Shown: positions 1 to 49,230 of the stretch, piece after piece
Position numbering within the stretch: position 1 is the first letter of the stretch
How the letters are laid out: the number at the start of each line of letters is the position of its first letter
NCBI RefSeq assembly: GCF_001646655.1
Contig: NZ_LPZN01000011.1
Location: forward strand, 62,001 to 126,000
Direction of reading: 5' to 3'
DNA: 64,000 nt
Origin: Rhodococcus gordoniae
GTDB taxonomy: Bacteria; Actinomycetota; Actinomycetes; Mycobacteriales; Mycobacteriaceae
Notes under the pieces: generated by a model
The model's database searches: none
The model's input: the letters and a program-made list of their open reading frames with translations, nothing else
Told to the model about the DNA's origin: nothing
Position numbers and translations under genes: made by a program

Positions 1-1
1 T

Positions 2-2221
2 GCGCCGGGTCTCTCGCTGTCCACCGACGAAGGCGTCGCTCAGGTCGTCGGCGCGGCACGCGAGTCGATCTGCCGACCCGCGGGAGTCGCTGATCAGTTG
101 CGGTCGTCCGGTATCGCGACATTCGCGGTGGGCCTCGCCAACGGCACCGCGCAGGCCGCCGATTTCGACCTGATGCGCTCCATCGCGACAGGCGAGCCGG
201 TGGCCGGTCAAGCGTGTGGTGTGCGGACGGAACCCACGCCGGGCGACTTCTACCTCGCGCAGAACATCGACGATCTGCTGTTCGCCTTCGACGCGTTCAG
301 CAGTCCCGGTCAGGCTCCGCTCGAGAACGAGACCGGTGTCTGCGCCTACGAGGTGTGCGAGGAGGCCCAGCACCGCTTCGTGCTCGACGACTCGATCGGG
401 TCCGTCACGGTTCTCGGATTCGCCGACGCCGAAGGTCTGGTTCCGACGCTCGTCAACCCGAGTGGCGACGAGCTCCCCATGGCCTACACGTCGGCAGAGT
501 CCGGTTCGTCGGTCGAGGGCGTCGCGGTCGATTACCGCTGGCTCTCCGACCGCTCGGTGTCGTTCACGATGGAGCAGCCCGAGAACGCCGCCGGCGAGTG
601 GCAGGGCATGTGGGCTCTCGTGTTCGTCGACCCCGACGGGTCCGAGCCGGCTGCCCGCTCCAAGTCGAACATCCACATCTCCGGAAACCTGTTCCCGGCG
701 CTGCTCGGCCAGGACGTCACCGCCATCCACGCCGGTGAGGTCACGTCCGCGGTCCGACTGGGAATCGTCGACTCCGACCGCGAGGAGATCGATCCGTCCG
801 AGCTTCTCGGATCCGCGTACCTGGGCGTGTCGCTCACCGACGCGGCGCAGGTGGATCACACGTTGGCGTCCGGGGTGTCCAAGGACGCGATCGGTGAACC
901 GATCGAGCTGGACCTGACGAACGTCGCGCCCGGTGAGGCGACACTGCGTCTCGTCCTCGAAGTGACCACCGCGGACGCCACCGACGAGTCGGGCTCCGTG
1001 ATCGCTCCCGGCACCGACCTCACGCCGCAGTACGTGGACGTGCCGCTGAACTTGGCTCCGCCGATCGGCTACCCGACGGTGCCCGGCCGGATCGACTTCG
1101 GGCAGGTGGAAGGTTCCGGTACCTTCCCCGGCGAGCTCGTGATCCAGGGGCCCGGGTGCGTGTGGGTCGACCCTGCCTCGCCCGTCCGTATCGATGCAAT
1201 TCCCGATGGCGTCGGAAATGCCGCACTCACCGTCGGCGGAGCCACTTCGCCGGACAACTGCCTCACCATCGAGGAAGGAACGAGCGGCAGACTGCCCCTC
1301 GAACTCGCTGTCCCGGAAGCGGGCAACGGTGCCTTCAACGGTGCGGTCCGTCTGATGATCGCCCCCGAAGGCGAGCCGGATCGCGCGATGCCCGTCGACG
1401 TTCCGTTCACGGCGGATCTGCTCAAGCCGCTCGACACCGCACGCTTCCTGCTGGGCTTCCTGGCGGTGTTCCTCCTGGGTGTCGGAATCCCCTTCGCCAT
1501 CCTGTATGCGCTCAAGTGGTGGGCGTCTCGCATCCCGGCCGAAACCCTCAAGTCGCAGAGCTTCCTCGTGCGAGTGTCCGACGGTGGGCTGTTGCGTGAC
1601 GGTCGACCGTTCACCCTCAACGACAACGACCTGCGAGAGATCGTCCGTAATCTCGACAAGCCGGCTCGAAACCTCGACGTCGACGGAGCTCGCCTCGAAG
1701 CCAAGATGGGTAGGGCGCCCGTCGGAGCCGGTTACGTCCTCGTCCGTGCCGAGGGGATGCTCGGCGCTTCGGGTGCGACTCCCGCTACCGATCGCAGCAC
1801 CGGTCAGGCACGTCTGCCCCTCGCGGTGCACAACAACTGGGTGCTGCTCCACGACCCCAAGGGACCCGTCGACGAGGCGGTCCTGCTCCTGCTCGTCGGT
1901 GCCAATGCGTCGAACGAACGGGTACGGGGACTTGTGGACGAGGCAGGTCGGCGAGCACCACGGATCATCGACGATCTGCGAGCCCGCGCACAGGGCTCCG
2001 ACAGCAACACACCGCAGAACCCGACTTCGCCTGAGCCGGCGACGGCCGGCGCTCCGTCGTCGTTCGATCCGTTCGCCGCACCGGGGACACCTTCGGCTCC
2101 GACCTTCGGTGCTCCGCCGCCGTTCACCGGTGGTCCCGGCTTCGGGGGTCAACCGCCGACCGGTCCCGGATCGACACCGCCGGGACAACCCTTCGACCCG
2201 TTCCGTCCGCCCGGTTCCTGA
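2..2221 (+). CDS. Membrane-anchored vWA-domain protein, 5' partial
   Basis: The reading frame is open from the window edge, so the start lies upstream; 739 residues are visible. The first ~60 residues look like the C-terminal half of a von Willebrand factor A domain, with the typical strand 'GIATFAVGLANG' followed by a final helix. A long beta-rich region follows, then one strong transmembrane segment (about bases 1440-1515), a cytoplasmic-type domain, and a Pro/Gly/Phe-rich tail (about bases 2010-2220). Family knowledge: vWA domains bind protein partners, often through a metal site, but the MIDAS half lies outside the window. It is the first visible gene of a coupled operon, 42 bases before the tubulin-like gene, so I infer it is the membrane-facing adaptor of that system. 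Confidence 0.8.
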   Translation, partial: APGLSLSTDEGVAQVVGAARESICRPAGVADQLRSSGIATFAVGLANGTAQAADFDLMRSIATGEPVAGQACGVRTEPTPGDFYLAQNIDDLLFAFDAFSSPGQAPLENETGVCAYEVCEEAQHRFVLDDSIGSVTVLGFADAEGLVPTLVNPSGDELPMAYTSAESGSSVEGVAVDYRWLSDRSVSFTMEQPENAAGEWQGMWALVFVDPDGSEPAARSKSNIHISGNLFPALLGQDVTAIHAGEVTSAVRLGIVDSDREEIDPSELLGSAYLGVSLTDAAQVDHTLASGVSKDAIGEPIELDLTNVAPGEATLRLVLEVTTADATDESGSVIAPGTDLTPQYVDVPLNLAPPIGYPTVPGRIDFGQVEGSGTFPGELVIQGPGCVWVDPASPVRIDAIPDGVGNAALTVGGATSPDNCLTIEEGTSGRLPLELAVPEAGNGAFNGAVRLMIAPEGEPDRAMPVDVPFTADLLKPLDTARFLLGFLAVFLLGVGIPFAILYALKWWASRIPAETLKSQSFLVRVSDGGLLRDGRPFTLNDNDLREIVRNLDKPARNLDVDGARLEAKMGRAPVGAGYVLVRAEGMLGASGATPATDRSTGQARLPLAVHNNWVLLHDPKGPVDEAVLLLLVGANASNERVRGLVDEAGRRAPRIIDDLRARAQGSDSNTPQNPTSPEPATAGAPSSFDPFAAPGTPSAPTFGAPPPFTGGPGFGGQPPTGPGSTPPGQPFDPFRPPGS

Positions 2222-2263
2222 CGGCCGCGCAACAACTCTCTATCTCGATTCGGAAGGACCGCA

Positions 2264-5200
2264 ATGAGGCGATTTCTGGTAGTTGGCTGCGGCGGATCCG
2301 GTGCCGTCACCCTCGCGTACATGATGGACCAGCTCCGGTCCGATCTCGCCGCCGTGGGCATCGACAAGATCCCGGGCGGTTGGCAGTTCGTCAGCGTCGA
2401 CGTGCCCACCGCCCCCGAAGCCGGGCCCGACGGTCTGGGCAACGTACGCGACCAGGGCGGCTACTACTTCGGCAGCGGTCCGCAGGGCGACTCGTATGCC
2501 GTGCTTGACAACGCGCTGAGCAACCAGTTGGGCGCACGGAACAGCCTCCACGAGATCGCGACCTGGGCACCCCGTGACCCCTCCGCGGTGACGGTGCCGA
2601 TCGGCTCGGGCGCCGGCCAGTATCGGGCCCTCGGTCGCATGATCACCCTGAGCAAGGCCGGCGGCATCCGCGACACGCTGCAGCAAGCGTGGGACCAGCT
2701 GTTCACGGTGCAGACGGCGACCGAGATGTCTGCCATGAAGATCCCCGGCGGGGGAAGCTTCGAGCAGGAGGAGTCGCCGATCGTCCTGGTCGTCTCGTCG
2801 ATGGCCGGTGGTGCCGGCGCATCGATGGCCCTGGACATCTGCCGACTGCTCACTCTCATCCCCAAGCTCGACCCGCGCCTGATGGGCGTGTTCATGGTGG
2901 CTCCCGACATCTTCGACGGTCTCGGTCGCAGCGCGACGACCGGTGTGCGCGCGAACGCGCTCGCGATGCTCGGCGAGATCGTCGCCGGCCAGCTCGGCTC
3001 CGCACGCGAACACGACGTCGAGATCCTGCGGGCCCTCGGTCAGCAGGCCGGTGAAGGCGAGAAGGTGCCCTTCGCCCGCGTGTTCCCCGTCGGTCGCCGC
3101 GTGGGTGTCGAGGGTGCACCCTTCGGTGACGGCTCGCAGAAGGCGATCTACCGCGGTCTCGCACGTGGTCTCGCCGGGATGATGATGAGTGGCGCCGCGA
3201 CCCGCCAGTTCGTGCAATACGACCTGACCAACGGTGCGGGTCTGTCCGGCCAGCGCGAGAACATCGGCTGGGGCGGCCAGTGGGACAACCTGCCGTGGGG
3301 CACCTACGGGTTCTCCAGCCTGAGCATGGGACGCGACCGTTACGCCGAGTACTCCGCTCAGCGACTGGCGCGCAGCACCGTGGATCGCCTGCTCGACGGC
3401 CACCGCAACGCGGCCAGCGTCGCCTCCGACGAGGACCAGGTCAATGCGATCCTCGACAGCCAGTGGCAGACACTGCTGACGAACATGGGACTGCCGGTCA
3501 TGCAGAACAATCCCGCTGGAGCGCAGGTCGGTGTCGGACCGTGGTTGACCGACAGCGTTCTTCCGTCGGCGGAAGCCCAGCGGATGGCACGTCAGATCGT
3601 GGAAACCGAGCTGCGTGCCTATCTGCCGTCCGGCAGTGGCCTGAGCGCGTCGCAGTGGGTTCCTGAGGTCCGACGTGCACTCGCGGCGCGTCGTCAGGCA
3701 CTGGTGACCTCGGCCGAGCAACACGCGCTCGGTCACGCCTTCCAGTGGCACCGAGGGCTGGCGCAGCGCATCGAGCAGCAGGTCGCCAAGGCGGTCGCCG
3801 ACCTCGGCCTGCCCTACGCGACGGCAGTGGTCAACAGGCTGTCGATTTTGGTGAAGGACCAGATCCGGGCCGGTGCCGAGGAACTCTCGCGCCATGCGCC
3901 CGAGGACATCACCGTCCAGTCCGCCGACACCCTGCAGATGCTCTCCGCGCTCAAGGGCAACATCGAGAGCGACGCCGACCTCCTCGAGCGGGTGATCTCC
4001 AGCTGCAGCAACAACGTCTACCGCCAGCTGTACGCGTCGTTGTCCGGCAAGGTTTCCGAGGTCGCGGCCGCACTCGTGCCGGAAATCCTCAAGCCGCTGC
4101 TCGACGCCCTCAACGAGTCTCAGACGGCGTTGCGCAAGGCGCGGAGCAAGCCGGCGAGCGACGTGGGTCTCGCTCGCCTTGCCACGGACCAGTACGGTGC
4201 CTGGCCGGCCGACAAGAGTGATCGCGTCCCCAAGCGTTTCGCCGAGGCCAACAACGAGGTGATGCTCACTCCGTCGGCCGATTTCATGGATCAGTACCGG
4301 TCCGACCTTCCGCTCGCCGTGGCATCGGACGGCCTGGGCACTCCGCCGTTCGAGGAGGCCGTCAATCGCGCGGTCGCCGAGGTGGTCACCGGTATCTGGA
4401 CCACCATCGACGGCAGCCGGCCGCCGGGGGAGGAGCACCCGCTGCTCGAACGCACCTCGGCGTGGCGCACCCGTGCCTTCCCGTTCGATCCCGGTACCCG
4501 TGAAGCCCTCGTGCCCTCCGCCGCGCGATTCGACGTGCACGTGCGACCGGCCGAACTGCTCGAACGCGCACGGCAATTCGTGGCCAGGACGGGGGAGTCG
4601 TTCGACAGGTTCTGCCGGGTCTCCCTGCGTGAGTACATCGAGGACATCACGGTGCCCGAGTACGCACTCGACGAGCGTCGCGAGCGTCTCCGCTCCAAGT
4701 TCGTCGAGGCGCTCTCTCTCGCTCGGCCGCTGGCGAGTGTGAACCAGCAGGCACTCGAAGCGCTGCATCCCGGTCAGCAGATCGAGTACCGCTACAAGTT
4801 CACGTCGATCCCGTTCCTCAATCTCCCTGTGGCGGATGCTCTGTCGCAGGTGTTGCAGAAGAACCCGATGATCGATCACGAAACCCGGTCGGAGTTCGTC
4901 CGATTGTTGTCCGAGGAGGACAAGCTCACTCGCATCGACATCTTCGGGTCGTATCCGAACTACTCCCCGCTGGCATACGATTCCGTGCTCGCTCCGGCCG
5001 CGAAGCAGTGGGCGGATTCCACTCCGGCGCAGCAGGAAGCGTTCTGGCAGTGGCGTCGTGCACGTCCGCTCGCCGCATCGTTGCCGATGCACGAGAGCGA
5101 GCGGCGCGCGATGACCGCCGGGTGGTTCCTCGGTCTGGTGACGGGTCGACTGCGTCTGCCCTCCGAGCCCTACGACGAGCCGGTCCGCGTGTGGGACGGT

Positions 5201-5839
5201 GCCACGTCGAGTTGGGTGGACTTCCCGAACCCGCTGCTCACCCCGCCGGCACGGTTCCTCGCGAACAACGACTGGCTTCCCGCCGTCATGGAATCGGTGT
5301 TGATCGCGATGGCTCGCTCGCACGAGTCGCCTGTCATGGCGTCGATGGCTCCCTACCGCGCGTTGCGAGGGATCTACGACGCATCGGCGGAGAAGCCGGC
5401 CAGCGGCATCCTCGAGGTGTCGGCCAAGTCCGTGCTTACCGACTGGCTGCGCACCGGCGACACGGGAACCGGTTGGCAGTCCCAGGTCGCCGACACCGGC
5501 GCGGGCGTCTCGATCGACGCGCGCGCGAAGAACGCGATCGCCTGGTTGACGAAGGTCCGCGATCTGACCGGCCAGCACTACCTGGCACCGGGTCGGGAAG
5601 GAGCACCCGGCGGAGGCGTGTTCTCGACCATCACGGTGCGCGAGCAGGCGTCCCAGACCCCGATCTACCGCGACATCGCCGCCGATGTGTACTGGGCGAC
5701 AGGCGAACTCATCGCTTTGGTCAAGGAATGCAAGACTCGCGCCGAGCAGCCCGAGCACGTCGACACGGTCACTCCCACCGTGAGTACCGCGACCACCTCG
5801 GCGCAGACCTTCCGGATCCCGGACATGGGGCAGTTCTGA
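2264..5839 (+). CDS. Large tubulin-like GTPase-fold protein
   Basis: 1,191 residues. The N-terminus has a nucleotide-binding glycine loop (GCGGSG, residues 8-13). A second glycine-rich loop, SSMAGGAGAS at residues 178-187, sits where tubulin/FtsZ proteins carry GGGTGSG. This pairing is characteristic of the bacterial tubulin-like (Tubulin_2) family. The remaining ~800 residues are mostly helical and I recognise no enzyme in them. The ATG start has a purine-rich AAGGA upstream, and the stop is one base before the next ATG. The context (vWA, GAP1-type protein, GTPase) matches predicted GTPase-centred conflict systems. Whether it polymerises or only binds nucleotide cannot be told from sequence. 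Confidence 0.8.
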   Translation: MRRFLVVGCGGSGAVTLAYMMDQLRSDLAAVGIDKIPGGWQFVSVDVPTAPEAGPDGLGNVRDQGGYYFGSGPQGDSYAVLDNALSNQLGARNSLHEIATWAPRDPSAVTVPIGSGAGQYRALGRMITLSKAGGIRDTLQQAWDQLFTVQTATEMSAMKIPGGGSFEQEESPIVLVVSSMAGGAGASMALDICRLLTLIPKLDPRLMGVFMVAPDIFDGLGRSATTGVRANALAMLGEIVAGQLGSAREHDVEILRALGQQAGEGEKVPFARVFPVGRRVGVEGAPFGDGSQKAIYRGLARGLAGMMMSGAATRQFVQYDLTNGAGLSGQRENIGWGGQWDNLPWGTYGFSSLSMGRDRYAEYSAQRLARSTVDRLLDGHRNAASVASDEDQVNAILDSQWQTLLTNMGLPVMQNNPAGAQVGVGPWLTDSVLPSAEAQRMARQIVETELRAYLPSGSGLSASQWVPEVRRALAARRQALVTSAEQHALGHAFQWHRGLAQRIEQQVAKAVADLGLPYATAVVNRLSILVKDQIRAGAEELSRHAPEDITVQSADTLQMLSALKGNIESDADLLERVISSCSNNVYRQLYASLSGKVSEVAAALVPEILKPLLDALNESQTALRKARSKPASDVGLARLATDQYGAWPADKSDRVPKRFAEANNEVMLTPSADFMDQYRSDLPLAVASDGLGTPPFEEAVNRAVAEVVTGIWTTIDGSRPPGEEHPLLERTSAWRTRAFPFDPGTREALVPSAARFDVHVRPAELLERARQFVARTGESFDRFCRVSLREYIEDITVPEYALDERRERLRSKFVEALSLARPLASVNQQALEALHPGQQIEYRYKFTSIPFLNLPVADALSQVLQKNPMIDHETRSEFVRLLSEEDKLTRIDIFGSYPNYSPLAYDSVLAPAAKQWADSTPAQQEAFWQWRRARPLAASLPMHESERRAMTAGWFLGLVTGRLRLPSEPYDEPVRVWDGATSSWVDFPNPLLTPPARFLANNDWLPAVMESVLIAMARSHESPVMASMAPYRALRGIYDASAEKPASGILEVSAKSVLTDWLRTGDTGTGWQSQVADTGAGVSIDARAKNAIAWLTKVRDLTGQHYLAPGREGAPGGGVFSTITVREQASQTPIYRDIAADVYWATGELIALVKECKTRAEQPEHVDTVTPTVSTATTSAQTFRIPDMGQF

Positions 5840-5840
5840 G

Positions 5841-8570
5841 ATGGCGACGGAGAGCAAGAGCGTTCTGACGGTCTTCGTCGGCTCGGTCGGTCCGGCTGCC
5901 GGCGTGCGGGACGTCCTGCGCGACCTCTCGACAGCGGAACTCGTGGGTTCGTTCGTGTGGGTGGACGACTCCGAGATCGGTGAAGCCGGAGCTCGGGTCC
6001 CGGCCGTGGAGACCGAGCGAGGAATCTCCCGGTCGGTCACGCTTCAGGACGTCTTGGCCTCGCGTCACTACGACCTGGTTCGCCTGTGTGTCCTGGTGCC
6101 GAGTGGGCCGGGCGCTGTACCCGTACGTCTGGGCACCGAGACGATGCTCGCCGAGCTGTTGTCGTCGAACTCCGGAGGCGCGCGGTGCGTGCGTCTGCGG
6201 GTTCTGCTGCGTCGCCCCGCCGATGAACAGCCTGCTTCCGCGACCCCTGCTCTGGCCGGTTGGCACAACCTGCTCGTCGCACCGGAGGACTCCCGTGGAC
6301 CCGGCATGGGCCACGAGTCGCTGACGGTAACGCACGATCCGGTGGATGTGGGCCGCCAGGCCGCGCCGGTGATCGCCGGCATCACCGGCTTGTGGACGGA
6401 TATCGAACACACCCCGTTCGACGATGCTCCCGTCCTTCCGGGCAACTCGCTGCGCGTGGTGCGGTCCTTCTACCGCCGCCTCGATACATCGCACGCCGAA
6501 CACCGGTTGCACTCCGAACTGCTGGAGTTCGACGGACAGCTCCCGCTTCCGCGCGACGCGGGCACCGCGGTGCTCTACGCCGATGATGTTCCGGCAGCGA
6601 CCCGGCAGATGGCACACGCCGTGTGGGTCAAGCACGGACACTTGCTGACCAGCCCGCGAAAGAGCGCGCCCCCGAAGCGGGACGTCCGCACCATCACCTT
6701 CATGGACGCGGTGCGGATGACCGGACGTTTTCTTCTCGCGGTGCTGAAGAACGCTCCGTCCCTCCTCATCACGCGGGCGATCCACCGAGCCTCGACGTCC
6801 GTGGCCTCCGCCGCGCAGCGAGCACTGTTCGGATCGACGCCCGGCGCATACCGGGTCCTCGTGGGTGGTGTCGACGCCGACGGTCAACGCGTGTCGTGGA
6901 CCGAGTACGAATCGGCCTCGCGCCAGCTCGGCGCGGCACTCGACGAGGCGAAGGGCACCCCGCAAGTAGCAGCACCCGACCTGTCGGCCCTGTGGCGGGA
7001 CTACGCCCGCGGTGCGCTGACACTCGCCGACGCCAGTGAACGATCGGCGGGTCTGCCCCCGATCCAGGTGGGTGCGCATCGTGCCGTCCTGCGATCGGCC
7101 GCCGACATCGTGCCCGGTCCTGATAACGACTTCACCGACATCCCCGGCGTCGTCTCCGCCACGACGCAGCTGCACGTGGCCGAGGCCCCCGACATCCTCG
7201 GTGTCGAGGAGCTCCGCACCACACTTCGTGGTCTCGAGCAGGATCCGGTGATCGGTCTCGATGCGCGACGCACCGGCGCAGCCATCCAGACGTGGGCCGC
7301 CAAGCGGCGCCACAGTTTCGCGGTGTCCTTCGGCTCCATTCTCACCAGCCGGCTCAGCGCGGACATCACCGAAGCGGGAACACTGCTCGAACGGATCAAG
7401 GGTGTCGAAGCCCTGCGTGACCCTGCGGAGGAGAGCGCCGAGGTTCAGAGGCGGATGTTCTGGCGCGTGCGCATCGCAACGTTGATCGCGCTCGTGCTGG
7501 GTGTGCTGGCAGGTGTCCTCGCGTGGAAGGAGTTCATCTCCTGGTGGGCGGGTGGCCCGATCATCGCGCTGTGTGTCATCGGGTGGGCCATCGCCGTCAC
7601 GCTGATCTGCCAGAAGGCGCAGCAGTACCTCGAAGATCTGCTGGCGAGTCGCGAAGCCATCACCGCCGCCAACGAGGCCGACCGAGTGAATCTTCGTGCG
7701 GCTCTGCGCGAGATCGAGGTTCTGACCGGTGCCTACCGGCAGTACCTGTCGTGGAGCCGCGCGCTCGGCGCCTTCCTGGCCCGGCCCCTCGGTGTGCCGA
7801 AGCACGTCCTGACTGCTCGCCGGCGGATCGACTGGGGTCTGCCGCGCCACAGTGCCATCGGGTCCGGCAGCCCCGACGACGACAAGATCGCTCGCGTTGC
7901 CGATCAGTTGCGGCAGGATCTGTTCACCGTCGGATGGCTCACCGAACCGTGGGACACGGTCTCGGCAGGAGCCGGTGTGGCTCTCGGCGGGTCAGCACAC
8001 GACATCACCCGCGACCCGAGCCTGCTGACCACCAAGGCCGGTGCCGGGTCGGGCTCTCCCCTCGACGAGTGGTCGCTCATGTTCTACCGCGGCCGGGTGC
8101 AGTCCACCGGTGCGGCGGTGCTCTGGCAGCGGGCGATGAGCGAACTCACCGGTCCTCGCACCGAACTCGCTCGTGACCTTCTCGACGTCATCGAGTACCG
8201 CATCGACGGCACCGTCCATCGCTCCGGTATCGACGACTTCCTCGCCGGGGTCGGAGTGCCGACCGAGGGTGGCTTCCTCGACCGCGCGGCCTTCACCGAC
8301 ACCGCGACGATGCGCGGTGCCTCGGCTGTATCCGGTGAGCTCTACTCACGGACACGGGTCGGTTGCGGCCTCGTCGCGGTCACCACCCAGTTCACCGAGG
8401 GTGTCTCTGCCGAGGATCTCGCCCGACCGACGTCGAAGCATGTCCGGACCGAGGAGATCCACGAGATCCCCGATATCGATCTGCGTCCCGCGCAACGCGA
8501 GGAATCGTCCGCCGACAATTCGGGTCGAACTTCGTACATCGCGCCTGCCGTCGACGGCATCAACTTCTGA
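5841..8570 (+). CDS. Two-TM operon protein of the tubulin-like/GTPase system
   Basis: 909 residues, starting one base after the tubulin-like gene's stop, so the two are probably translationally coupled. Two adjacent hydrophobic helices lie at about residues 540-595 (bases ~7465-7610), separated by a short WKEFISWW turn. They are followed by a likely coiled-coil segment and a C-terminal soluble domain. I recognise no catalytic motif. Strict coupling with the genes on both sides argues that the product is a stoichiometric partner in one complex, probably its membrane anchor. The function is otherwise unknown. Confidence 0.7.
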   Translation: MATESKSVLTVFVGSVGPAAGVRDVLRDLSTAELVGSFVWVDDSEIGEAGARVPAVETERGISRSVTLQDVLASRHYDLVRLCVLVPSGPGAVPVRLGTETMLAELLSSNSGGARCVRLRVLLRRPADEQPASATPALAGWHNLLVAPEDSRGPGMGHESLTVTHDPVDVGRQAAPVIAGITGLWTDIEHTPFDDAPVLPGNSLRVVRSFYRRLDTSHAEHRLHSELLEFDGQLPLPRDAGTAVLYADDVPAATRQMAHAVWVKHGHLLTSPRKSAPPKRDVRTITFMDAVRMTGRFLLAVLKNAPSLLITRAIHRASTSVASAAQRALFGSTPGAYRVLVGGVDADGQRVSWTEYESASRQLGAALDEAKGTPQVAAPDLSALWRDYARGALTLADASERSAGLPPIQVGAHRAVLRSAADIVPGPDNDFTDIPGVVSATTQLHVAEAPDILGVEELRTTLRGLEQDPVIGLDARRTGAAIQTWAAKRRHSFAVSFGSILTSRLSADITEAGTLLERIKGVEALRDPAEESAEVQRRMFWRVRIATLIALVLGVLAGVLAWKEFISWWAGGPIIALCVIGWAIAVTLICQKAQQYLEDLLASREAITAANEADRVNLRAALREIEVLTGAYRQYLSWSRALGAFLARPLGVPKHVLTARRRIDWGLPRHSAIGSGSPDDDKIARVADQLRQDLFTVGWLTEPWDTVSAGAGVALGGSAHDITRDPSLLTTKAGAGSGSPLDEWSLMFYRGRVQSTGAAVLWQRAMSELTGPRTELARDLLDVIEYRIDGTVHRSGIDDFLAGVGVPTEGGFLDRAAFTDTATMRGASAVSGELYSRTRVGCGLVAVTTQFTEGVSAEDLARPTSKHVRTEEIHEIPDIDLRPAQREESSADNSGRTSYIAPAVDGINF

Positions 8571-8584
8571 GAGCGAGGATTTCC

Positions 8585-10597
8585 GTGTCGGAAGGTGTCA
8601 TCGAAGCGCTGCAGGAGTGGCGGCAGACCGAGATCGACAAGGGTCGACTGCGGCCGGGACTGATCAAGGACACGCATCTGCAGCAGATCGTCCGGACGAA
8701 TCGGCGCACGGTCGCCGAGATCGAGTCGATGCTCCCGCGCCACGCGAAGCCTCTCGTCGAGGGTCTCGTCGAAGCGCTCACGTCGGCCACCGCGCTGAGC
8801 ACCGACACCGCTCCGTCCGAGACGACCTCCGCGACGCGGGAGCCAGAGCCGGAACCGGTGGTCGAACCGGTCGAGCCGCTTCCGGGCAGCGAATTCCTGG
8901 TGGACCTCGGAACCGAGGACTTCTGCGAGTATCTGCACGGTGAGTCGGAGTACGAGGTCGGTCCGCTCACCATCACCGCTGAACCGCGAGGTGGGCACCG
9001 CGTCGAATGGACACCGCTGCCCGGGCGGTCCGGAACGACGGTGCTGTATCGAGTGGTGTCGGGGGAGACCCATCGGGCCTACAAGCCCGAGGCAGGGCGA
9101 CTCGTCGGCGTCACCCGTGGCTCGATGATCGTCGATATCGAACCTGCGGCAGCAGCGGTGCGCCATCTGCAGGTGTGGGCGCACATCGGCAGCAACGAGC
9201 GGGATGCCGCGGAGCGTCAGCCGGTGCTCATCGCCGAAGGACACGTTCTCAGTGCCGTCCAGGATTTCGTCGTCATCGAGGACGACGGTGCGGTGATCGG
9301 CCAGTGGTCGGTGTGGCCGGGGGTTTCCCGCGTCCGGGTTCTCCGCATCCCTCTCGACGGTCGCTCGCCCGTCACGAACGACCCGCGCTACCGGATCCTC
9401 GCCGATCAGCCGAACTTCGGTGGCTTCGTCGACCGTGATGCACTGCGTGGTCACCGCTACCTGTACCGCGCGATCTGCGAGATCGAGGTGGACGGTCAGA
9501 CGCGTCTGTCCCCGGCGGCGCAGGCCGAGGTGCTCGTTTCCGCCGTACTCGAACCGGTGACCGATCTGCAGGTCACCACGCACGAACACGAGGACGGTCT
9601 CCACTTCGACCTCGGGTGGACTCCGCCGGACATCGGCAGCGTGGTCATGTACCGCACGGAGACCGCGCCGAAGGCGGGCATCGACCGGGAACTCCTGGAA
9701 GCGAGCGCCCTGGACGTCTCCGGTGGGCTTCCCGCGTCCGCGCGGCTCGTGCACCCGGTCGTCATCGATTCGCAGGGCCGCCACAGCATGGCCAACGTGT
9801 CGTGGCCGCGGGGGTGGGTGCGTGCCTACTTCACTCCGGTGACCGTTCTCGACGGGCAGGTGCAGGTGGGTCGTACCGTCATCGCAACGCGACCGCTCCC
9901 GGCGCTCGAGGGTGTTCGCATCGTCGAGCGGTGTGCTGAGCAGGTGGTGACCTTTCCGTGGCCGGACGGGGCAGCGTCGGTGTCGGTCTACGTGAGCGCC
10001 GCGCAGGTGCCTGCCGAACATGCCATCGAGCAGCGACCGGTCGCGGAGATCTCCCGTTCGCAGTACGAGCGGGACGGTGGGCTGCATCTGCGGGATCAAC
10101 TTCCCGAGCAGGGGTGCGCCGTGCATGTCGTCGCCATCGCTTACACGGCGGGCGAACGCATCGTCGGTAAGCCGTCCACCGTCGACTATCCGGGACTGTT
10201 GCGAATCCAGTACACGATCGAATCCCGGCCTGCTCCGGGTGGAGTCCTGGTCCTGGCTATCCGGTTGGCGTCGGAGATCGAATTGTCCACCGCACCACCC
10301 TTCCTCATCGTGCACAATCTCAGGCGGCTGCCGTTGAGCGCGCGGGACGGTCAACCGCTCGAGGTCCGCGGGGGCAGTGGTACGCAACCGGGAGCGCGGA
10401 GCTTCCACCCGAACGGTCTGCGCCGCGAGTGGTCCCAGCCGTGGTTGGTCGACGTGAGCGACGCCCGGGGATTCGTGCGCGTGTTCGCGGATGTGCGACC
10501 CGAGAAGGCGCGCACCATCGCGTTGCTCGACCCGCCGGTGGAGCAGATCAACCTCGATCTGATCGACCGGCGTCCGATCGACGATCCGCTGGAGTGA
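8585..10597 (+). CDS. FN3-like beta-sandwich repeat protein
   Basis: 670 residues. I chose the GTG at 8585 because GAGCGAGGA lies just upstream and the in-frame sequence before it overlaps the previous gene and reads as non-coding. The first ~120 residues are helical and charged with a Pro/Glu linker. The rest shows repeated beta-rich units with fibronectin-III character (for example 'VEWTPLPG' and 'LGWTPPDIGSVVMYR'), apparently four or five of them. Such repeats usually bind proteins. No signal peptide is visible, so it probably acts in the cytoplasm beside the GAP1-type protein encoded one base downstream. The domain assignment rests on pattern only. Confidence 0.65.
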   Translation: MSEGVIEALQEWRQTEIDKGRLRPGLIKDTHLQQIVRTNRRTVAEIESMLPRHAKPLVEGLVEALTSATALSTDTAPSETTSATREPEPEPVVEPVEPLPGSEFLVDLGTEDFCEYLHGESEYEVGPLTITAEPRGGHRVEWTPLPGRSGTTVLYRVVSGETHRAYKPEAGRLVGVTRGSMIVDIEPAAAAVRHLQVWAHIGSNERDAAERQPVLIAEGHVLSAVQDFVVIEDDGAVIGQWSVWPGVSRVRVLRIPLDGRSPVTNDPRYRILADQPNFGGFVDRDALRGHRYLYRAICEIEVDGQTRLSPAAQAEVLVSAVLEPVTDLQVTTHEHEDGLHFDLGWTPPDIGSVVMYRTETAPKAGIDRELLEASALDVSGGLPASARLVHPVVIDSQGRHSMANVSWPRGWVRAYFTPVTVLDGQVQVGRTVIATRPLPALEGVRIVERCAEQVVTFPWPDGAASVSVYVSAAQVPAEHAIEQRPVAEISRSQYERDGGLHLRDQLPEQGCAVHVVAIAYTAGERIVGKPSTVDYPGLLRIQYTIESRPAPGGVLVLAIRLASEIELSTAPPFLIVHNLRRLPLSARDGQPLEVRGGSGTQPGARSFHPNGLRREWSQPWLVDVSDARGFVRVFADVRPEKARTIALLDPPVEQINLDLIDRRPIDDPLE

Positions 10598-10598
10598 C

Positions 10599-13328
10599 GT
10601 GAGTGCCCACGATGCCGAACGCCCGAGGTTCGGCCAGCTCACCTATACCTCCTTCGACCGTCCGGGTACTGCGACCGCTGGAGGTTGGCAGGTCAAGGAC
10701 ACCACCGGCGACCTCTACGCGGACGAGAAGGAACGGTTGCGAGCGGGGATCGTGACCCGATTCGACGCGATACCTCCGATCCCTCGTTTCCCGAATGCGG
10801 AGGAGCTTCGCAATCGCCCACGACGGTTGATGTACGCGCCCGGAGCGGGCCGTACCGGTATGTACTGGCACACGGTTCCGGCCGGTGCGGATGCGACGGG
10901 ACGACCCGGAAACGTCTTCGCGCACTGCCTCATCGATCGTGTCGGTAGCGAGGCGACCGATGGTCGTCCGATCGAGCGGTGGGGTTCGTCGGGTTGGCTC
11001 GTGCCCTACGGTGCGGACGAGGTCGCCGCAGCAACTCTCGGTGCCACCGAGCCGGAACCGAGTGATCTCGTCTCCCGCGACGCCGTGTTGGATTTCCTGC
11101 TCGATCCGGACACATGGCGCGTGGGTGTCTTCAGCGTTCTTCTGGATGCAGTGGCACGAACGCTCGAAGGCGGGCCGCCGGTGGTTCTCGGTTGTCGGGA
11201 TCCGCACAGAGCAGCACTGTGGATCGCCTCGGTCTCGCACTTCATGTCGCCCGGCACGAGCCGGCGGTTCGGGTGGTCGACGTTCGATCGGCTACACGCA
11301 GTGGACGACGCTGTCGCGTGCGGCGCACACCTGATCGCCGTGCCGCTCGACGACCTGCCCGGAGATACACCTGGATGCGTCGTCTTCGGAGAAGGCGAGT
11401 CGCCCGATCTCGGTGAACTCGACGGCGAACCGCACTGTGTCGAGAACGGCGATCTCGTGCTGGTGACTCCCTGGTCGCTGCTCGCCCAGACGGTCTTGGT
11501 GGAGGAAGACCCAGCACGACGTGCGCTTGCCCGTCAGGACGCGATCGCAGCGGAAGTAGGCGACGACGGTCTCTCACCGATGTGGCCGTTGGCGATGGCC
11601 GTGGTGTCGGACGACGAACTCCACGACGCTCTCGACGAAGCGACGACGATTCTGTTGGAACACAGTCCGGAGACTGTCGCAGGTACGGAATGGGCGGCAC
11701 TGATCGCCAACATCGTGGAACACAACCTCGGCGACAGCACCGAGGACGCGGCTCGAGGACTCGATCGCTGGTCACGCGACGACACCCTGGCACCGGCGGT
11801 GCGCACTCTTGCTGCAGTGGTCTTTGCGCATCGCGCATTCGACGAGGTCGGATGGATCTCAAGTGCCGACCCGATGCGCCGCGAACTCTTCGGTCACTGC
11901 GATCGTGCACCGGAACTCGTCACCGCGGCAGAGCGCGCAATCGACCGGCTCCGACACCACGTGGGTGTGGGAAGCGATCGCCTCGCCGTGGCTGTGGACG
12001 CTCTACGCACGATCGATGTGGTGGTGCGAGCAGGACTTCTCACCACACGCAGTGAGGATCGCGTTTTCGAGATTCTCGAACTCGCGGTCGTGCCCGTCCT
12101 GTGCGCTCCGAAGATAGGACCTGCGGTGGTCGCCGAAATCGGGGAGGTGGAGGAGACCACCTGTGTCGACTTCGTGCAGCCGGCGGTGGTCACGCATCCC
12201 GACTTCCTCGCCCGACCACTGGGGCGCCGCTTGGAGCGTTCGGTCTTCGCATGGGTCGCCAGCAGCCTGAGGGAGCGGCCGACGTTCGACGAGCTCGTGG
12301 CGGACAGCTCTGTCGTGACGTCGCCGGTGAGTGTCCTTGTTGCCGAAGGTGTTTTCGGGCTCACCGCCGACGGTGGACGTGTTCGCAGCGATCTGGCGAC
12401 GGTTGCGCTGTGGCGTGCCTTCTTCGAACTCGAAGACGGCGCTGCGAGTGTCGACAGCCTGGATGAGGTGGTCGCAGCCCAGCAATGGAATGCCGTTCAA
12501 TGGTGTCAGGCAATCGAGACGTTCCCACAGGTGGTCGCGCCGCGGTATCTGCAGGACGCTGTCGTGTGCAACGCATGGGCGTCGGATGTCGAAGCCGTCG
12601 CCGCTCACCTGATCCGAGTACGTCGCGGTGAGCTGAGGGGGCGCTGGCATGAGAATCGGCGTCTCGATGCCCTTGCGGAGAGTTGGGCCGCGATCCGTTG
12701 GCAGGAGAGTTGGTCGACCGTCGGGGGGCCTGAGTTCGATCGGGCCTGGCAGCAGGACGGACTACCGGTACTCATCGATTACGCCCGGCACTACGCAGCC
12801 GACCTTCCGAGTGACGTGCTCGCGCGGCTTGCCGTCTTTCTCCTGGCAGCACTTGCACGACCGTATGGAGATCCGTTGGCGGAAATCGATCTGCCGGCGG
12901 CACACCAGGACGCACTCGTCGACGCTGTTGCAACCGAAGTGAGATATGCAGTCGAGTCGATTGTCGAACTCGTCGAATCAGGTGTCGTCGGAATCGAGTG
13001 GCTGCTCGCGCATGCAGTGTTCAGTTCGCCCAAAGCCCCGAGAGCGGGTGGACTGTCGGCGCAGACCGAGTTGCTGAGTCGGCTCGTGATCGAGTCCGAC
13101 GGTGGCCGGCAGGGACTGCTCGACGAGGTTGTGACGCGCCTGCTACCCGCGTCGTGGTTCAGAGGGCCCGGGGCTGTGATGACGACGATCCGCACTGAAC
13201 TACGAGCGCGTGGTCGCCGTGACGCCGACCGGGTGTGCGAAGCCTACGAGGCCTTCGTCGTGTGGTGGTTCGACCAGCGGCTGGCGGACGCCGAACGTGT
13301 GATTTCCGGACCGAGAGGATCGATCTGA
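10599..13328 (+). CDS. GAP1-type GTPase-associated protein
   Basis: 909 residues from a GTG start one base after the previous stop. The N-terminus carries FGQLTYTSFD (residues 11-20) and the following Gly/Pro-rich block that I associate with the GAP1-N family; the remainder is alpha-helical, consistent with the GAP1-M and GAP1-C regions. These proteins are recurrent neighbours of TRAFAC-type GTPases in predicted NTP-dependent conflict systems and are thought to be GTPase partners; no enzymatic activity is established. The stop overlaps the next ATG by one base (TGATG). The family call is fairly secure; the role is inference from context. Confidence 0.75.
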   Translation: MSAHDAERPRFGQLTYTSFDRPGTATAGGWQVKDTTGDLYADEKERLRAGIVTRFDAIPPIPRFPNAEELRNRPRRLMYAPGAGRTGMYWHTVPAGADATGRPGNVFAHCLIDRVGSEATDGRPIERWGSSGWLVPYGADEVAAATLGATEPEPSDLVSRDAVLDFLLDPDTWRVGVFSVLLDAVARTLEGGPPVVLGCRDPHRAALWIASVSHFMSPGTSRRFGWSTFDRLHAVDDAVACGAHLIAVPLDDLPGDTPGCVVFGEGESPDLGELDGEPHCVENGDLVLVTPWSLLAQTVLVEEDPARRALARQDAIAAEVGDDGLSPMWPLAMAVVSDDELHDALDEATTILLEHSPETVAGTEWAALIANIVEHNLGDSTEDAARGLDRWSRDDTLAPAVRTLAAVVFAHRAFDEVGWISSADPMRRELFGHCDRAPELVTAAERAIDRLRHHVGVGSDRLAVAVDALRTIDVVVRAGLLTTRSEDRVFEILELAVVPVLCAPKIGPAVVAEIGEVEETTCVDFVQPAVVTHPDFLARPLGRRLERSVFAWVASSLRERPTFDELVADSSVVTSPVSVLVAEGVFGLTADGGRVRSDLATVALWRAFFELEDGAASVDSLDEVVAAQQWNAVQWCQAIETFPQVVAPRYLQDAVVCNAWASDVEAVAAHLIRVRRGELRGRWHENRRLDALAESWAAIRWQESWSTVGGPEFDRAWQQDGLPVLIDYARHYAADLPSDVLARLAVFLLAALARPYGDPLAEIDLPAAHQDALVDAVATEVRYAVESIVELVESGVVGIEWLLAHAVFSSPKAPRAGGLSAQTELLSRLVIESDGGRQGLLDEVVTRLLPASWFRGPGAVMTTIRTELRARGRRDADRVCEAYEAFVVWWFDQRLADAERVISGPRGSI

Positions 13329-14344
13329 TGCCGGGTTACGTACTCGACGGGGCAGGGCGAGTGGAGTTGCCTCGGCAACCGCTCGCCGTCACCGTCACAG
13401 CGCTCGACGTTCCGGTGGTCGTTCGTGCGACGACCGCCGACGGCCAGGACCTACCATCGGCGCTGCATCCGAAGCCCGGCTTCGTGGTGTTGCCGCGGAT
13501 CGACAGGGATGTCGTCGTGGTTGCCACCCCTGGGAACGACTCGGGATTCCCGCAGGGCACGGTGCTTCAGGCGATCGTCGCAGTGGACACGACGAATGTC
13601 GTCGACCCGGACCGGGCCGAGCTCACGCCCCTGGACGTGTCGGGACTGCACCATGTCGAACTTGCCACCATCACTCCGGCAGATGATCGGCTCGTCGTCC
13701 GCGCGCGCAAGACCGCAGTCGACGTCCCGCTGAACGAACTCGGTGCGCGAGCGCGCTCGGCGGCCCGAGGAGTGCTGGGTGTGGACCGGTTGCCGGAGTC
13801 CGGACAGGTTCGGGTCGAGGTCGACATCGACACCACAATGTCGATGCTTCCCCTCATCGAGAACGGCACTGTACGCGACGTCGTCGATCTTCTGTCCGGC
13901 ATCGCTGCTGTCGTCGGACGCCGGGAGGAACTGCACGTGAACCTGATCGGACACAGGGTCACGGCCTTGCCGATCGAGGAACTGCGACGCGCTGCCGACA
14001 CCGTGCAGGGCGCTCTGGACGCTGCCGGACTGGGTATCGGTTTCCGGTCTTCCACCGTCGACCGGTCACACCCCGCCGAAACGACCCTTGTCTTCACTGT
14101 GACCGACGCCGTGCCGGCGGATCACACCGCGGTGCCGGTCGAGGGGGTGCGCCGGCGTCCCATCATCCTGCAGGCCGGAGAGGACTCGCGGAACGAACTC
14201 GAACCGGGCGGCACGGTCGTATCGACCGCGACCGAGACGCACGCGAGTCGGGGGTGGCTGGACGATCCGCAGGATCTGTTCCGCACCGTGAAGTCGCTCG
14301 TGGCGGGACTGGCCGCCGGCACGCACACGGAAGGTGCCCTCTGA
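13328..14344 (+). CDS. Soluble vWA-domain protein with MIDAS motif
   Basis: 338 residues; the start ATG overlaps the GAP1-type stop and its own stop overlaps the GTPase ATG. After an N-terminal beta domain there is a vWA-like core with DTTMS at residues 168-172, matching the metal-ion-dependent adhesion site consensus DxSxS/T. The strand/helix pattern that follows (HVNLIGHRVTALP) also fits. vWA domains bind protein partners through the metal ion. This is the second vWA protein in the operon and has no TM segment, so it may bridge the GAP1/GTPase part to the membrane vWA protein. An in-frame upstream extension to 13235 is rejected because it lies wholly inside the preceding gene. Confidence 0.75.
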   Translation: MPGYVLDGAGRVELPRQPLAVTVTALDVPVVVRATTADGQDLPSALHPKPGFVVLPRIDRDVVVVATPGNDSGFPQGTVLQAIVAVDTTNVVDPDRAELTPLDVSGLHHVELATITPADDRLVVRARKTAVDVPLNELGARARSAARGVLGVDRLPESGQVRVEVDIDTTMSMLPLIENGTVRDVVDLLSGIAAVVGRREELHVNLIGHRVTALPIEELRRAADTVQGALDAAGLGIGFRSSTVDRSHPAETTLVFTVTDAVPADHTAVPVEGVRRRPIILQAGEDSRNELEPGGTVVSTATETHASRGWLDDPQDLFRTVKSLVAGLAAGTHTEGAL

Positions 14345-15507
14345 TGACGAAATGCCCACGGTGCTTCACCGAACTGCCGGCCGACCGGACTGCTTGGTTG
14401 CCCACTGCTCCCGCCGAGGTGGAGCCGGACCAGATCGCCACTGCTCATCAAGGGACGCCGGTTCGGTCGGGCAAAGTTGTGTACCTCGACCGCCCGGCTG
14501 CAGCGGGGGAGGACTGGTCGCCCGAGGCCGAGACGGTGGAGGAGAAGGCCGGAGGGCCGGCTGTCGAGGCATGCCCGACCTGCCACTACCGGCTTCCTGT
14601 CGGACTTCGGGGTGCGCAGACCACCTGTATCGCCATGGCCGGAGCGCGTGCCACCGGAAAGACCGTCTACATTGCGGTTCTCGTCAAGGCGCTCCAGCTG
14701 CTCGGCGAGCGACTGAACTGCGTCGTGGAGCCGGCGACATCCGAGACGGAGATGGTGTACCGCGAGCTGTACGAGAAGCCGCTCTATGAAGAACGCGGCA
14801 TCCTCGAACCGACTCCAGCCGCGCACACGAGCAATCAGTATCAGCGTGAACCGCTGATCTTCTCGCTCGGAGTATGGAACGGACGCCGGCAGTACCTGAT
14901 CCTGCGGGACGTGGCGGGGGAGGACCTGGAGAACCCGAACAACGTCCACGTCCAGCACATGCGCTTCTTCGCGCAGGCGGACGGCGTGGTGTTCATGTTC
15001 GATCCGCTCCGGGTCGAATCCGTACGTCAGCAGCTGCACGACCTGGTGCCGGTGCAGGAGCGGGTCGGCGGCGACCCGCGTTCGGTGCTGCGCACAGTTT
15101 TCTCGATCATCGGGAACTCCACACCGAATCTTGCCGTGGTGTTGTCCAAATTCGATGCACTCCAAGCACTTCACAACGTGGAGGGCAGCGACTGGAGTGA
15201 GATCATGGGACAACCGGGTGCAGCGTTCTCCCGCGACCCGAGCCTGCAGTACGCGCCGTACAACGAAATGGACGGGCAACTCCTGCACGAGGAGGTCCGG
15301 AGTCTGCTGGACAAGCTGGAAGCGAAGTCGATGGTGATGTCGGTGGATCAGCCGCATACCGGAGTGACGCTGAACAGCAGATTCTTCGCTGTGTCGGCTC
15401 TCGGCGAGTCGCCGGTGGGGGATCGGCTGCACCACAACGGCATTTCGCCGTTCCGGTGCCTGGATCCGGTGCGGTGGATTCTTGCGCAGCGGGGAGTGTG
15501 GGTGTGA
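14344..15507 (+). CDS. TRAFAC-type GTPase with zinc ribbon (double-GTPase-like)
   Basis: 387 residues, ATG overlapping the previous stop (TGATG). Two CxxC knuckles (CPRC 4-7 and CPTC 77-80) form a split zinc ribbon. The GTPase core follows: Walker A GARATGKT (100-107), a Walker B/switch II-like DVAGED (189-194), and SKFD (268-271) in the place of NKxD. It belongs to the GTPases called DO-GTPase or TRAFAC-like that associate with GAP1 proteins. It is the last gene of the coupled chain and probably the nucleotide-driven switch of the system. The guanine-specificity motif is Ser-Lys-Phe-Asp rather than Asn-Lys-x-Asp, so specificity should not be assumed. Confidence 0.8.
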   Translation: MTKCPRCFTELPADRTAWLPTAPAEVEPDQIATAHQGTPVRSGKVVYLDRPAAAGEDWSPEAETVEEKAGGPAVEACPTCHYRLPVGLRGAQTTCIAMAGARATGKTVYIAVLVKALQLLGERLNCVVEPATSETEMVYRELYEKPLYEERGILEPTPAAHTSNQYQREPLIFSLGVWNGRRQYLILRDVAGEDLENPNNVHVQHMRFFAQADGVVFMFDPLRVESVRQQLHDLVPVQERVGGDPRSVLRTVFSIIGNSTPNLAVVLSKFDALQALHNVEGSDWSEIMGQPGAAFSRDPSLQYAPYNEMDGQLLHEEVRSLLDKLEAKSMVMSVDQPHTGVTLNSRFFAVSALGESPVGDRLHHNGISPFRCLDPVRWILAQRGVWV

Positions 15508-15656: not shown

Positions 15657-16172
15657 ATGTCGTGGAGCGTCGGTACTTCTGTTCGTGCTGCAGGAGCCGT
15701 CTTGACGGTTGTGGGGTTGGCGGTAGGTCTGTCGGCCTGCGGTTCGGATTCCGAGTCCACGGCAGAATCGGCCTCGACTTCCGTGACATCGTCGGTGTCT
15801 CAACCGCCTACGACGACCCAGGCACGTACGTCGGCGGAGACCACGACGAAAGCACCCGTGAGTTCTTCCACCACCGAGCTGCCTCCTGCTCCTGTGGCTG
15901 CCCCGAGAGCCACCACGTCGTCGGCTGTGCCTGTCCCGACGACGGTTCCCATGCCGAACGTGGTGTGCATGAATCTTCAGGACGCGCAGAATCTTATTCA
16001 GGAGCTCGGCGTCTTCTACTCGCGTAGTACCGATGCGACCGGAAAGGGTCGGAACCAGGTACTCGATGCGAACTGGGTCGTGGTCGGACAGACTCCGGGC
16101 GTGGGGGTTCCGATCGGTGAAGGTGACGCGGTGCTCTCGGTTGTGAAGCTGACCGAGCCGAATCCCTGCTAG
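15657..16172 (+). CDS. Lipoprotein with C-terminal PASTA-like domain
   Basis: 171 residues. The ATG is preceded by AGAAGGAGA at a good distance. The signal peptide ends in a lipobox (LSAC, Cys28), so the product should be anchored outside the membrane. A Ser/Thr/Pro-rich linker (about residues 30-100) leads to a ~70-residue domain with PASTA character: 'MPNVVCMNLQDAQ' start, a long helix, and the 'VVGQTPGVGVPIGEG' loop. PASTA domains bind peptidoglycan fragments or beta-lactams. It lies 149 bases after the GTPase on the same strand, so it may be co-transcribed or have its own promoter. It could give the system an envelope-facing sensor, which is inference. Confidence 0.75.
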   Translation: MSWSVGTSVRAAGAVLTVVGLAVGLSACGSDSESTAESASTSVTSSVSQPPTTTQARTSAETTTKAPVSSSTTELPPAPVAAPRATTSSAVPVPTTVPMPNVVCMNLQDAQNLIQELGVFYSRSTDATGKGRNQVLDANWVVVGQTPGVGVPIGEGDAVLSVVKLTEPNPC

Positions 16173-49010: not shown

Positions 49011-49230
49011 GGTTACACCTGCCCGACGCGGAAGCAGGTATGGATGACCGCGGCAAGAATGGAATGCGCGGGGGTGGAGTAGAGCATGTGGATACCAATT
49101 CATAGGGGCTGGCAATGGACGCCGAACCGGTGCACTTGCTTGTTTCGGCGGCAGCGTGAAATCCGTTACGGCATGTCCGAAAAGACTGAAATTCTGCTTC
49201 TCAGAGGTGATCCAACGGGTGTAAGCCTGC

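Follow-up and report, generated by a model that had tools for sequence, protein, structure and literature searches.

Operons that join a tubulin-like protein to a vWA protein and a GTPase have been described from genome comparisons, and here we compare with them an eight-gene operon (genes A to H) of Rhodococcus gordoniae, which lies at the start of a stretch of 64,000 nucleotides (the window; positions 62001-126000 of contig NZ_LPZN01000011.1, in an assembly of 4.82 Mb). The excerpted text of Kaur et al. 2020 (PMC7159879) describes an actinobacterial tubulin theme of GAP1-N2 systems, which it states to exclude VMAP systems; it lays stress on variable effectors and proposes immunity for all of these nucleoside triphosphate (NTP)-dependent systems. 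The available passages of Makarova and Koonin 2010 (PMC2875224) describe FtsZl1-vWA-GTPase operons, name a vWA member in Corynebacterium glutamicum and propose membrane remodelling. The Synechocystis Tubulin_2 gene sll0445 affects phototaxis and stands in a different gene context, and a DO-GTPase is mentioned near psp genes (PMC11237479).

The operon shares with the tubulin theme, as excerpted from Kaur et al. (PMC7159879), a zinc-ribbon DO-GTPase, GAP1-N2 and GAP1-M domains, a single Tubulin_2 protein whose C-terminal region is long, a membrane vWA protein, a probable FNIII/HRDC-type protein and actinobacterial hosts; the DO-GTPase has the zinc ribbons and Walker-B Glu of the theme. With the FtsZl1 operons, as they appear in the consulted parts of PMC2875224, it shares FtsZ-like-1 (here matched to Pfam Tubulin_2), a vWA protein and a P-loop GTPase. 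The original prediction, made from the sequence alone, knew of no assigned function for this combination of genes. Literature searches likewise found no functional test of DO-GTPase/GAP1/tubulin systems, but the combination itself had already been described (PMC7159879, in the excerpt; and as FtsZ-like-1/vWA/GTPase operons since 2010, PMC2875224, likewise). What is new and strong is a genomic link between the operon and TerD genes in its relatives.

Linkage of the operon to TerD genes

The eight genes are as follows, in window coordinates.

Gene A, about -1092 to -523 (outside the window), + strand: protein of ~189 amino acids (aa) with a proline-rich start and three hydrophobic segments
Gene B, 1..2221 within the window (true start GTG at window -526), + strand: 915-aa membrane vWA protein
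Gene C, 2264..5839, + strand: 1191-aa tubulin-like GTP-binding protein with a long C-terminal region
Gene D, 5841..8570, + strand: 909-aa membrane protein with a Rossmann-like N-terminal domain, a helical region and a C-terminal alpha/beta part
Gene E, 8585..10597, + strand: 670-aa soluble protein, the probable counterpart of the FNIII/HRDC component in the excerpt of Kaur et al. (PMC7159879)
Gene F, 10599..13328, + strand: 909-aa GAP1 protein (GAP1-N2, GAP1-M and a variable C-terminal part)
Gene G, 13328..14344, + strand: 338-aa protein with a predicted TerD-like beta domain (residues 2-152) and a vWA domain with a D-x-S/T-x-S metal ion-dependent adhesion site (MIDAS)
Gene H, 14344..15507, + strand: 387-aa zinc-ribbon DO-GTPase (double-GTPase 2 family)

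When 84,980 species genomes were scanned with a profile of protein C, 202 relatives came up, and the best 80 were analyzed with 10 kb flanks where available. Upstream flanks were common mainly to close relatives, except for TerD genes and a mycobacterial DUF4190 cluster; the upstream open reading frames (ORFs) common across genera were TerD (Pfam TerD E 2e-44 for one flank member). TerD was then searched for in 48 of the genomes that carry the 80 loci, picked mostly for long contigs (L048 was left out), and downstream flanks were fetched and joined to the loci before distances were measured. It was found that 26 of the 48 operon genomes contain TerD, and that in 24 of these 26 a TerD gene lies near the operon (no more than ~6.7 kb away on the upstream side or 11 kb on the downstream side), the exceptions being L033 and L084, whereas random placement of each genome's TerD genes would give an expected 0.57 of 26.

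As a control, GAP1-N2 was found in 37 of the 296 genomes of a class sample, and ~20 kb around GAP1 (10-20 kb near contig ends) were searched in 34 of them, leaving out G000 and G262 (tubulin type) and G528 (contig edge). TerD was present in 21 of these 34 genomes (6-16 copies each) and lay near GAP1 in only 2 of the 21. Two of the 34 stand apart, L192 being of the tubulin type and L187 having E, F and H only, and neither is among the 21; L192 has no Pfam TerD match, and a custom profile finds a TerD-like ORF after its gene H (E 5e-7). The comparison of 24/26 with 2/21 gives a Fisher p of 1e-8, with kinship ignored. Therefore, proximity to TerD is particular to the tubulin type and not general to GAP1-N2 systems.

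The position of the TerD gene differs among relatives: directly 5' of A in Williamsia and in one Rhodococcus group, directly 3' of H in several Gordonia, Salinibacterium and L091, on both sides in L074, L080 and L081, and reversed upstream in Arthrobacter, with an exonuclease-BRCT-TerD gene near the operon in R. aetherivorans. In Salinibacterium, H is directly followed by three TerD genes, TerC/DUF475, a C-C bond lyase and a StiP-PRTase_2-TRSP-PELOTA protein. Three Rhodococcus loci (L034, L035, L093) encode a fusion protein in which a region 33-40% identical to the middle part of F (E 2e-41) is joined to a TerD domain (E 2e-25), and the gene overlaps the end of H. A separate observation is that another Rhodococcus, G109 (L162), has at 4152-7537, downstream of H, a TerD gene together with a second GAP1 paralogue that is 59% identical to F.

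Gene content, order and evolution

Reading the ORFs from the sequence bore out the seven + strand genes of the original prediction, their spacing of -1 to 42 bases (B-C 42 bp, C-D 1, D-E 14, E-F 1) and the two one-base TGATG overlaps (F-G at 13326-13330, G-H at 14342-14346). All seven are real, but the window begins inside the first of them, and upstream there is an eighth gene, A, which overlaps the start of B by 4 bases, so that spacing from A to H ranges from this 4-base overlap up to the 42 bp between B and C. The start of E was taken as GTG 8585, as a longer listed ORF from 8363 would overlap D. In this Rhodococcus, A to H are an eight-gene, tight + strand operon.

The family placements also stood in profile searches (Tubulin_2, GAP1-N2/M, DO-GTPase2, VWA_2). 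Protein B has a signal peptide, an extracellular vWA domain (VWA_2 E 2.9e-5, slightly short of the cut-off) with a DxSxS MIDAS whose D and second S are kept in 75/75 sequences, a beta-rich region, one transmembrane (TM) segment and a cytoplasmic tail, with hydrophobic segments at 4-22 and 659-677. Protein C matches Tubulin_2 (PF13809, E 3.4e-48, 165 bits), with GGSG (residues 10-13) in 80/80 sequences and the glycines of MAGGxGAS in 81/81. Protein D is the two-TM protein that had been predicted, with a hairpin at 543-561 and 572-590 within its helical region. The label 'FN3-like' for E was not confirmed by Pfam (fn3 matches 1 of 30 family members, E 0.059), and HRDC was not listed in the Pfam scan of the same 30 members; the longer frame of E gives a weak HRDC match (E 0.17), which fits the FNIII and HRDC protein in the excerpt of Kaur et al. 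(PMC7159879). F matches GAP1-N2 (PF20013, E 4.7e-20, 72.5 bits) and GAP1-M (PF20014, E 4.2e-09, 37 bits), both against cut-offs of 24, and H matches DO-GTPase2 (PF19993, E 1.5e-11, 44.8 bits, cut-off 27). Among 44 sequences of H, the P-loop G-K, the Walker-B RDVAGE (Arg in 43, Glu in 44) and SKFD are essentially invariant, and the CxxC cysteines are present in 37-43. Thus, C and H have intact GTP-binding motifs, B a signal peptide and one TM segment, and D two TM segments.

When A to H were located in the 80 loci with per-gene iterated profiles, their order was identical on one strand in 67, and the remaining 13 are incomplete because the contig or locus runs out; gene A was found in 73 loci, and E holds the same place in the 74 loci with a complete copy. 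Gene-order conservation, which the original prediction had put forward as a check, is therefore evident, and homologues are not scattered. An identical eight-gene order in 67 of 80 loci argues that the arrangement is more than chance, and this conservation of all eight genes is new here.

The operon was found in Rhodococcus, Williamsia, Gordonia, Nocardia, mycobacteria, Propionibacteriaceae, Micrococcaceae, Microbacteriaceae, Corynebacterium and others, and the closest relatives of the window's tubulin are those of R. aetherivorans (84%) and R. tukisamuensis (77%). Gene C is distributed patchily: it was found in 4 of 18 genomes from the genus, in 3 of 101 from an order sample and in 6 of 246 from a class sample (one of the six being a 64-residue match), with the Tubulin_2 profile in 17 of 151 genomes of the family (3 of the 17 being short partial matches). 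The tree of C, built by a quick method and with long branches, tracks genera almost fully (19 label changes against a minimum of 17), with exceptions such as L081, a Mycolicibacterium placed beside Gordonia. Per-gene identities were taken from the 39 loci with all eight genes complete; at a tubulin identity of 50-60% (133 pairs), the median was 51% for H, 40% for B, 37% for E, 35% for D and A, 30% for F and 27% for G. The fastest-changing components are F and G, and the slowest are C and H.

Two relatives depart from the common arrangement. In a sister species, G113 (L020/L030), a 2.6 kb IS21-like element with IstA-like and IstB-like ORFs splits the GAP1 gene at a site equivalent to window about 10691-10705, with a match overlap of ~15 bp that is consistent with target duplication, and the system may thus be non-functional there. 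In a Mycobacterium relative, L187 (G084), E, F and H are present and A-D are not in the stretch read, which is possibly a remnant or a minimal form. A reading of the locus as a mobile island was dropped, as the flanks recur in G113 at 96% DNA identity and upstream flanks are otherwise common mainly to close relatives; no empty-site comparison was made.

Predicted architecture of proteins G and D, and neighbouring genes

The MIDAS vWA protein of the original prediction proved to be G. The model of G (predicted local distance difference test, pLDDT, 89; 32-row alignment) has a vWA domain at residues 135-338 (VIA-align Z up to 14.6), with the MIDAS D in 65/73 sequences and the last S in 69/73, the first S being T in the window copy. 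The vWA-TerF-like profile PF10138 matches below its cut-off (E 0.0009, 19.9 bits against 29.4), and it matches 6 of 32 family members at E up to 0.01. Residues 2-152 resemble one PDB model, 9a6r_B (entry title 'GLPD-SCP2'), with Z 11.8 and a root-mean-square deviation of 2.6 over 126 aligned residues; SCP2 (B. subtilis YceC) is a protein that we take to be of the TerD family. The 9a6r entry was not among the PDB sequences matched by a TerD profile, and the solved TerD chains 3ibz and 2kxt are not among the 50 VIA-align matches listed for G, which are mostly vWA. The predicted structure thus points to a TerD-like domain followed by vWA, a TerF-like layout.

The model of D (pLDDT 86) aligns with a chain from a doublet-microtubule entry (VIA-align Z 9.5, 243 aligned) and with FtsZ chains (Z 7.3-8.7), and these chains are at or near the top of the list. 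These alignments span residues 7-865, that is, both the N- and C-terminal parts, whereas Rab-like matches cover 1-197 only. The Z values are middling, and the likeness to tubulin is hence weak; Foldseek against PDB and BFVD gave no match at E up to 0.001, and sequence profiles did not support a relationship of D to C or to the tubulins in PDB. The body of D may be tubulin-like, with the two TM segments in a helical insertion and with the GTP signature missing, and D may be a degenerate second tubulin.

Further features of the window lie downstream of H.

Gene I (tentative accessory), 15657..16172, + strand: secreted lipoprotein with a PASTA-like domain, 150 bp 3' of H
Defence-type island, 17229-46346 (minus strand for 17229-37951, plus strand for 41442-46346): begins 1.7 kb 3' of H
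GmrSD_C protein, 47679-49115

The PASTA match of gene I (E 1.3e-4) is short of the cut-off, and gene I was dropped as a core gene because its homologues lie near few loci only (R. aetherivorans, three Williamsia loci and G109). The island contains a UvrD-like helicase, a GmrSD enzyme, a DruE-like DEAD/MZB helicase, an OLD-like AAA ATPase, a type IIG restriction-modification enzyme, an SNF2 helicase and a second DEAD/MZB helicase. Homologues of secreted-nuclease-like DUF1524 (GmrSD_C)/Excalibur type, judged from one scanned member, occur near the operon in 7 of 49 regions (flanks of L036, L037, L038, L054, L081, L084 and L091). Five Gordonia operons (L041, L042, L046, L058, L078) occupy one chromosomal place, with adk/map-like genes beside them and a secY-like gene further upstream, which suggests stable inheritance there. 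In mycobacterial loci (e.g., L095, L152), same-strand arrays of DUF4190 genes with varied C-terminal domains flank the operon on both sides; the cluster comprises 52 genes in 14 loci, one of them non-mycobacterial, and some of the proteins carry a PknH-like extracellular domain (PknH_C found in one). These mycobacterial neighbours suggest envelope sensing.

Proposed function and comparison with known systems

We put at about even the probability that the operon encodes a membrane-anchored, GTP-switched tubulin polymer device for envelope stress or conflict, working with TerD/TerF-type proteins. The extracellular vWA domain of B, with A in the membrane, would sense or dock something at the cell surface, and the signal would pass to the zinc-ribbon GTPase H, which would form a switch with GAP1 (F) as its partner. 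Protein G, together with the adjacent or fused TerD proteins of many genomes, would bind F and tune it by a metal or small ligand. The switch would then trigger membrane assembly of the tubulin C through the two-TM protein D, and the C filament may reinforce, remodel or seal off the membrane. We infer polymerization, the ligand, the direction of signalling and the benefit to the cell from this anatomy. The families, the invariant order, the GTPase and tubulin motifs, the proximity of TerD, the Ter module of Salinibacterium, the GAP1-TerD fusion and the predicted fold of G support this reading, as do the mycobacterial DUF4190 and PknH_C neighbours, which fit envelope sensing.

Several observations weigh against it. 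The window's own genome has its nearest TerD gene, an exonuclease-BRCT-TerD one, as far as 20.5 kb from A on the upstream side; TerD was not found in 22 of the 48 operon genomes searched, and the mycobacterial, corynebacterial and propionibacterial ones among them, except L081, had no TerD match, so TerD is not essential. The distant tubulin operons G047 and G083 have TerD in the genome at >100 kb, sequence profiles relate the N-terminal part of G to TerD weakly (best E 0.012 and 0.69), and the Fisher and Poisson figures for the linkage ignore kinship.

A narrower form of the device, which we put forward tentatively, is a cytoskeletal arm of the Ter system, in which a ligand- or metal-dependent TerF-like/GAP1/DO-GTPase switch would drive co-assembly of the soluble, GTP-binding C and a degenerate, membrane-embedded D on the inner membrane face. 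If so, Ter systems would gain a polymer effector, the co-assembly of C and D would mean that the actinobacterial theme, like its firmicute counterpart, is a two-tubulin system, and D as a membrane tubulin would be an unusual way of docking a tubulin polymer on the membrane. The phenotypes of the Ter network concern tellurite, phage and colicin. Through its TerD linkage and the fusion of GAP1 to TerD, the operon connects to this stress-resistance network, so that a deletion strain is testable by existing assays.

The excerpt of Kaur et al. (PMC7159879) points instead to dedicated anti-phage immunity, abortive or sequestering, in which GAP1 and the FNIII protein would sense an invader and the GTPase would license a tubulin effector. 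The patchy distribution of the tubulin gene in the genus, order and family samples, the rapid evolution of GAP1 and G, and the defence-type island 1.7 kb after H in the window's genome agree with such a role, which we nevertheless consider rather doubtful: the genes inside the operon are eight fixed ones with no variable effector, PADLOC has no model for the window proteins (0 families for 7/7 at E up to 1), the five Gordonia loci are neighbours of adk/map and have secY homologues at a greater distance upstream, and the tubulin tree largely tracks genera. The original prediction, a membrane-linked signalling or immunity device, was upheld in its families and gene order, but the combination was not new and its immunity role remains a prediction; the Ter linkage is no less suggestive of a role in envelope or chemical stress.

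A housekeeping machine for membrane remodelling or vesicles, built on FtsZ-like-1 as in the excerpted PMC2875224 and with no tie to stress or conflict, would account for the conserved order, the membrane proteins on both sides and the near-vertical tree. We regard it as unlikely, given that most genomes of the genus and order samples lack the operon, that GAP1 is split by the IS21-like insertion in G113 and that E, F and H occur without A-D in the Mycobacterium relative. The recurrence of secreted or surface neighbours (mycobacterial DUF4190-PknH_C, the PASTA lipoprotein, DUF1524/Excalibur) might also speak for a machine that assembles the extracellular vWA and the PknH_C/PASTA proteins at the cell surface or exports them in the manner of a secretion system, but the operon has no channel, ATPase motor or peptidase and the surface partners vary by lineage, which makes this very improbable.

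With the Ter systems (TerD, TerC, TerF, StiP-PRTase), the operon shares adjacency in many relatives, a possible TerF-type vWA and a predicted TerD-like fold in G, and the GAP1-TerD fusion. TerD occurs in 18/18 genomes of the genus, whereas the A-H operon occurs in 4/18, and we know of no tubulin, GAP1 or DO-GTPase among Ter components. In open-licence PMC text, no literature linking Ter to the A-H operon was found. The excerpted main text of Kaur et al. (PMC7159879) names TerD once, separately and outside the tubulin-theme section, and its section 29 is silent on genes A and D, on a TerF-like arrangement in G, on TerD linkage and on a fusion of GAP1 to TerD; its effectors are variable, whereas the eight genes here are fixed. 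The FtsZl1 operons, as described in the consulted parts of PMC2875224, are without GAP1, FNIII or Ter components. The A-H operon is therefore a further member of a known, genome-predicted kind, and its tie to Ter is previously unreported.

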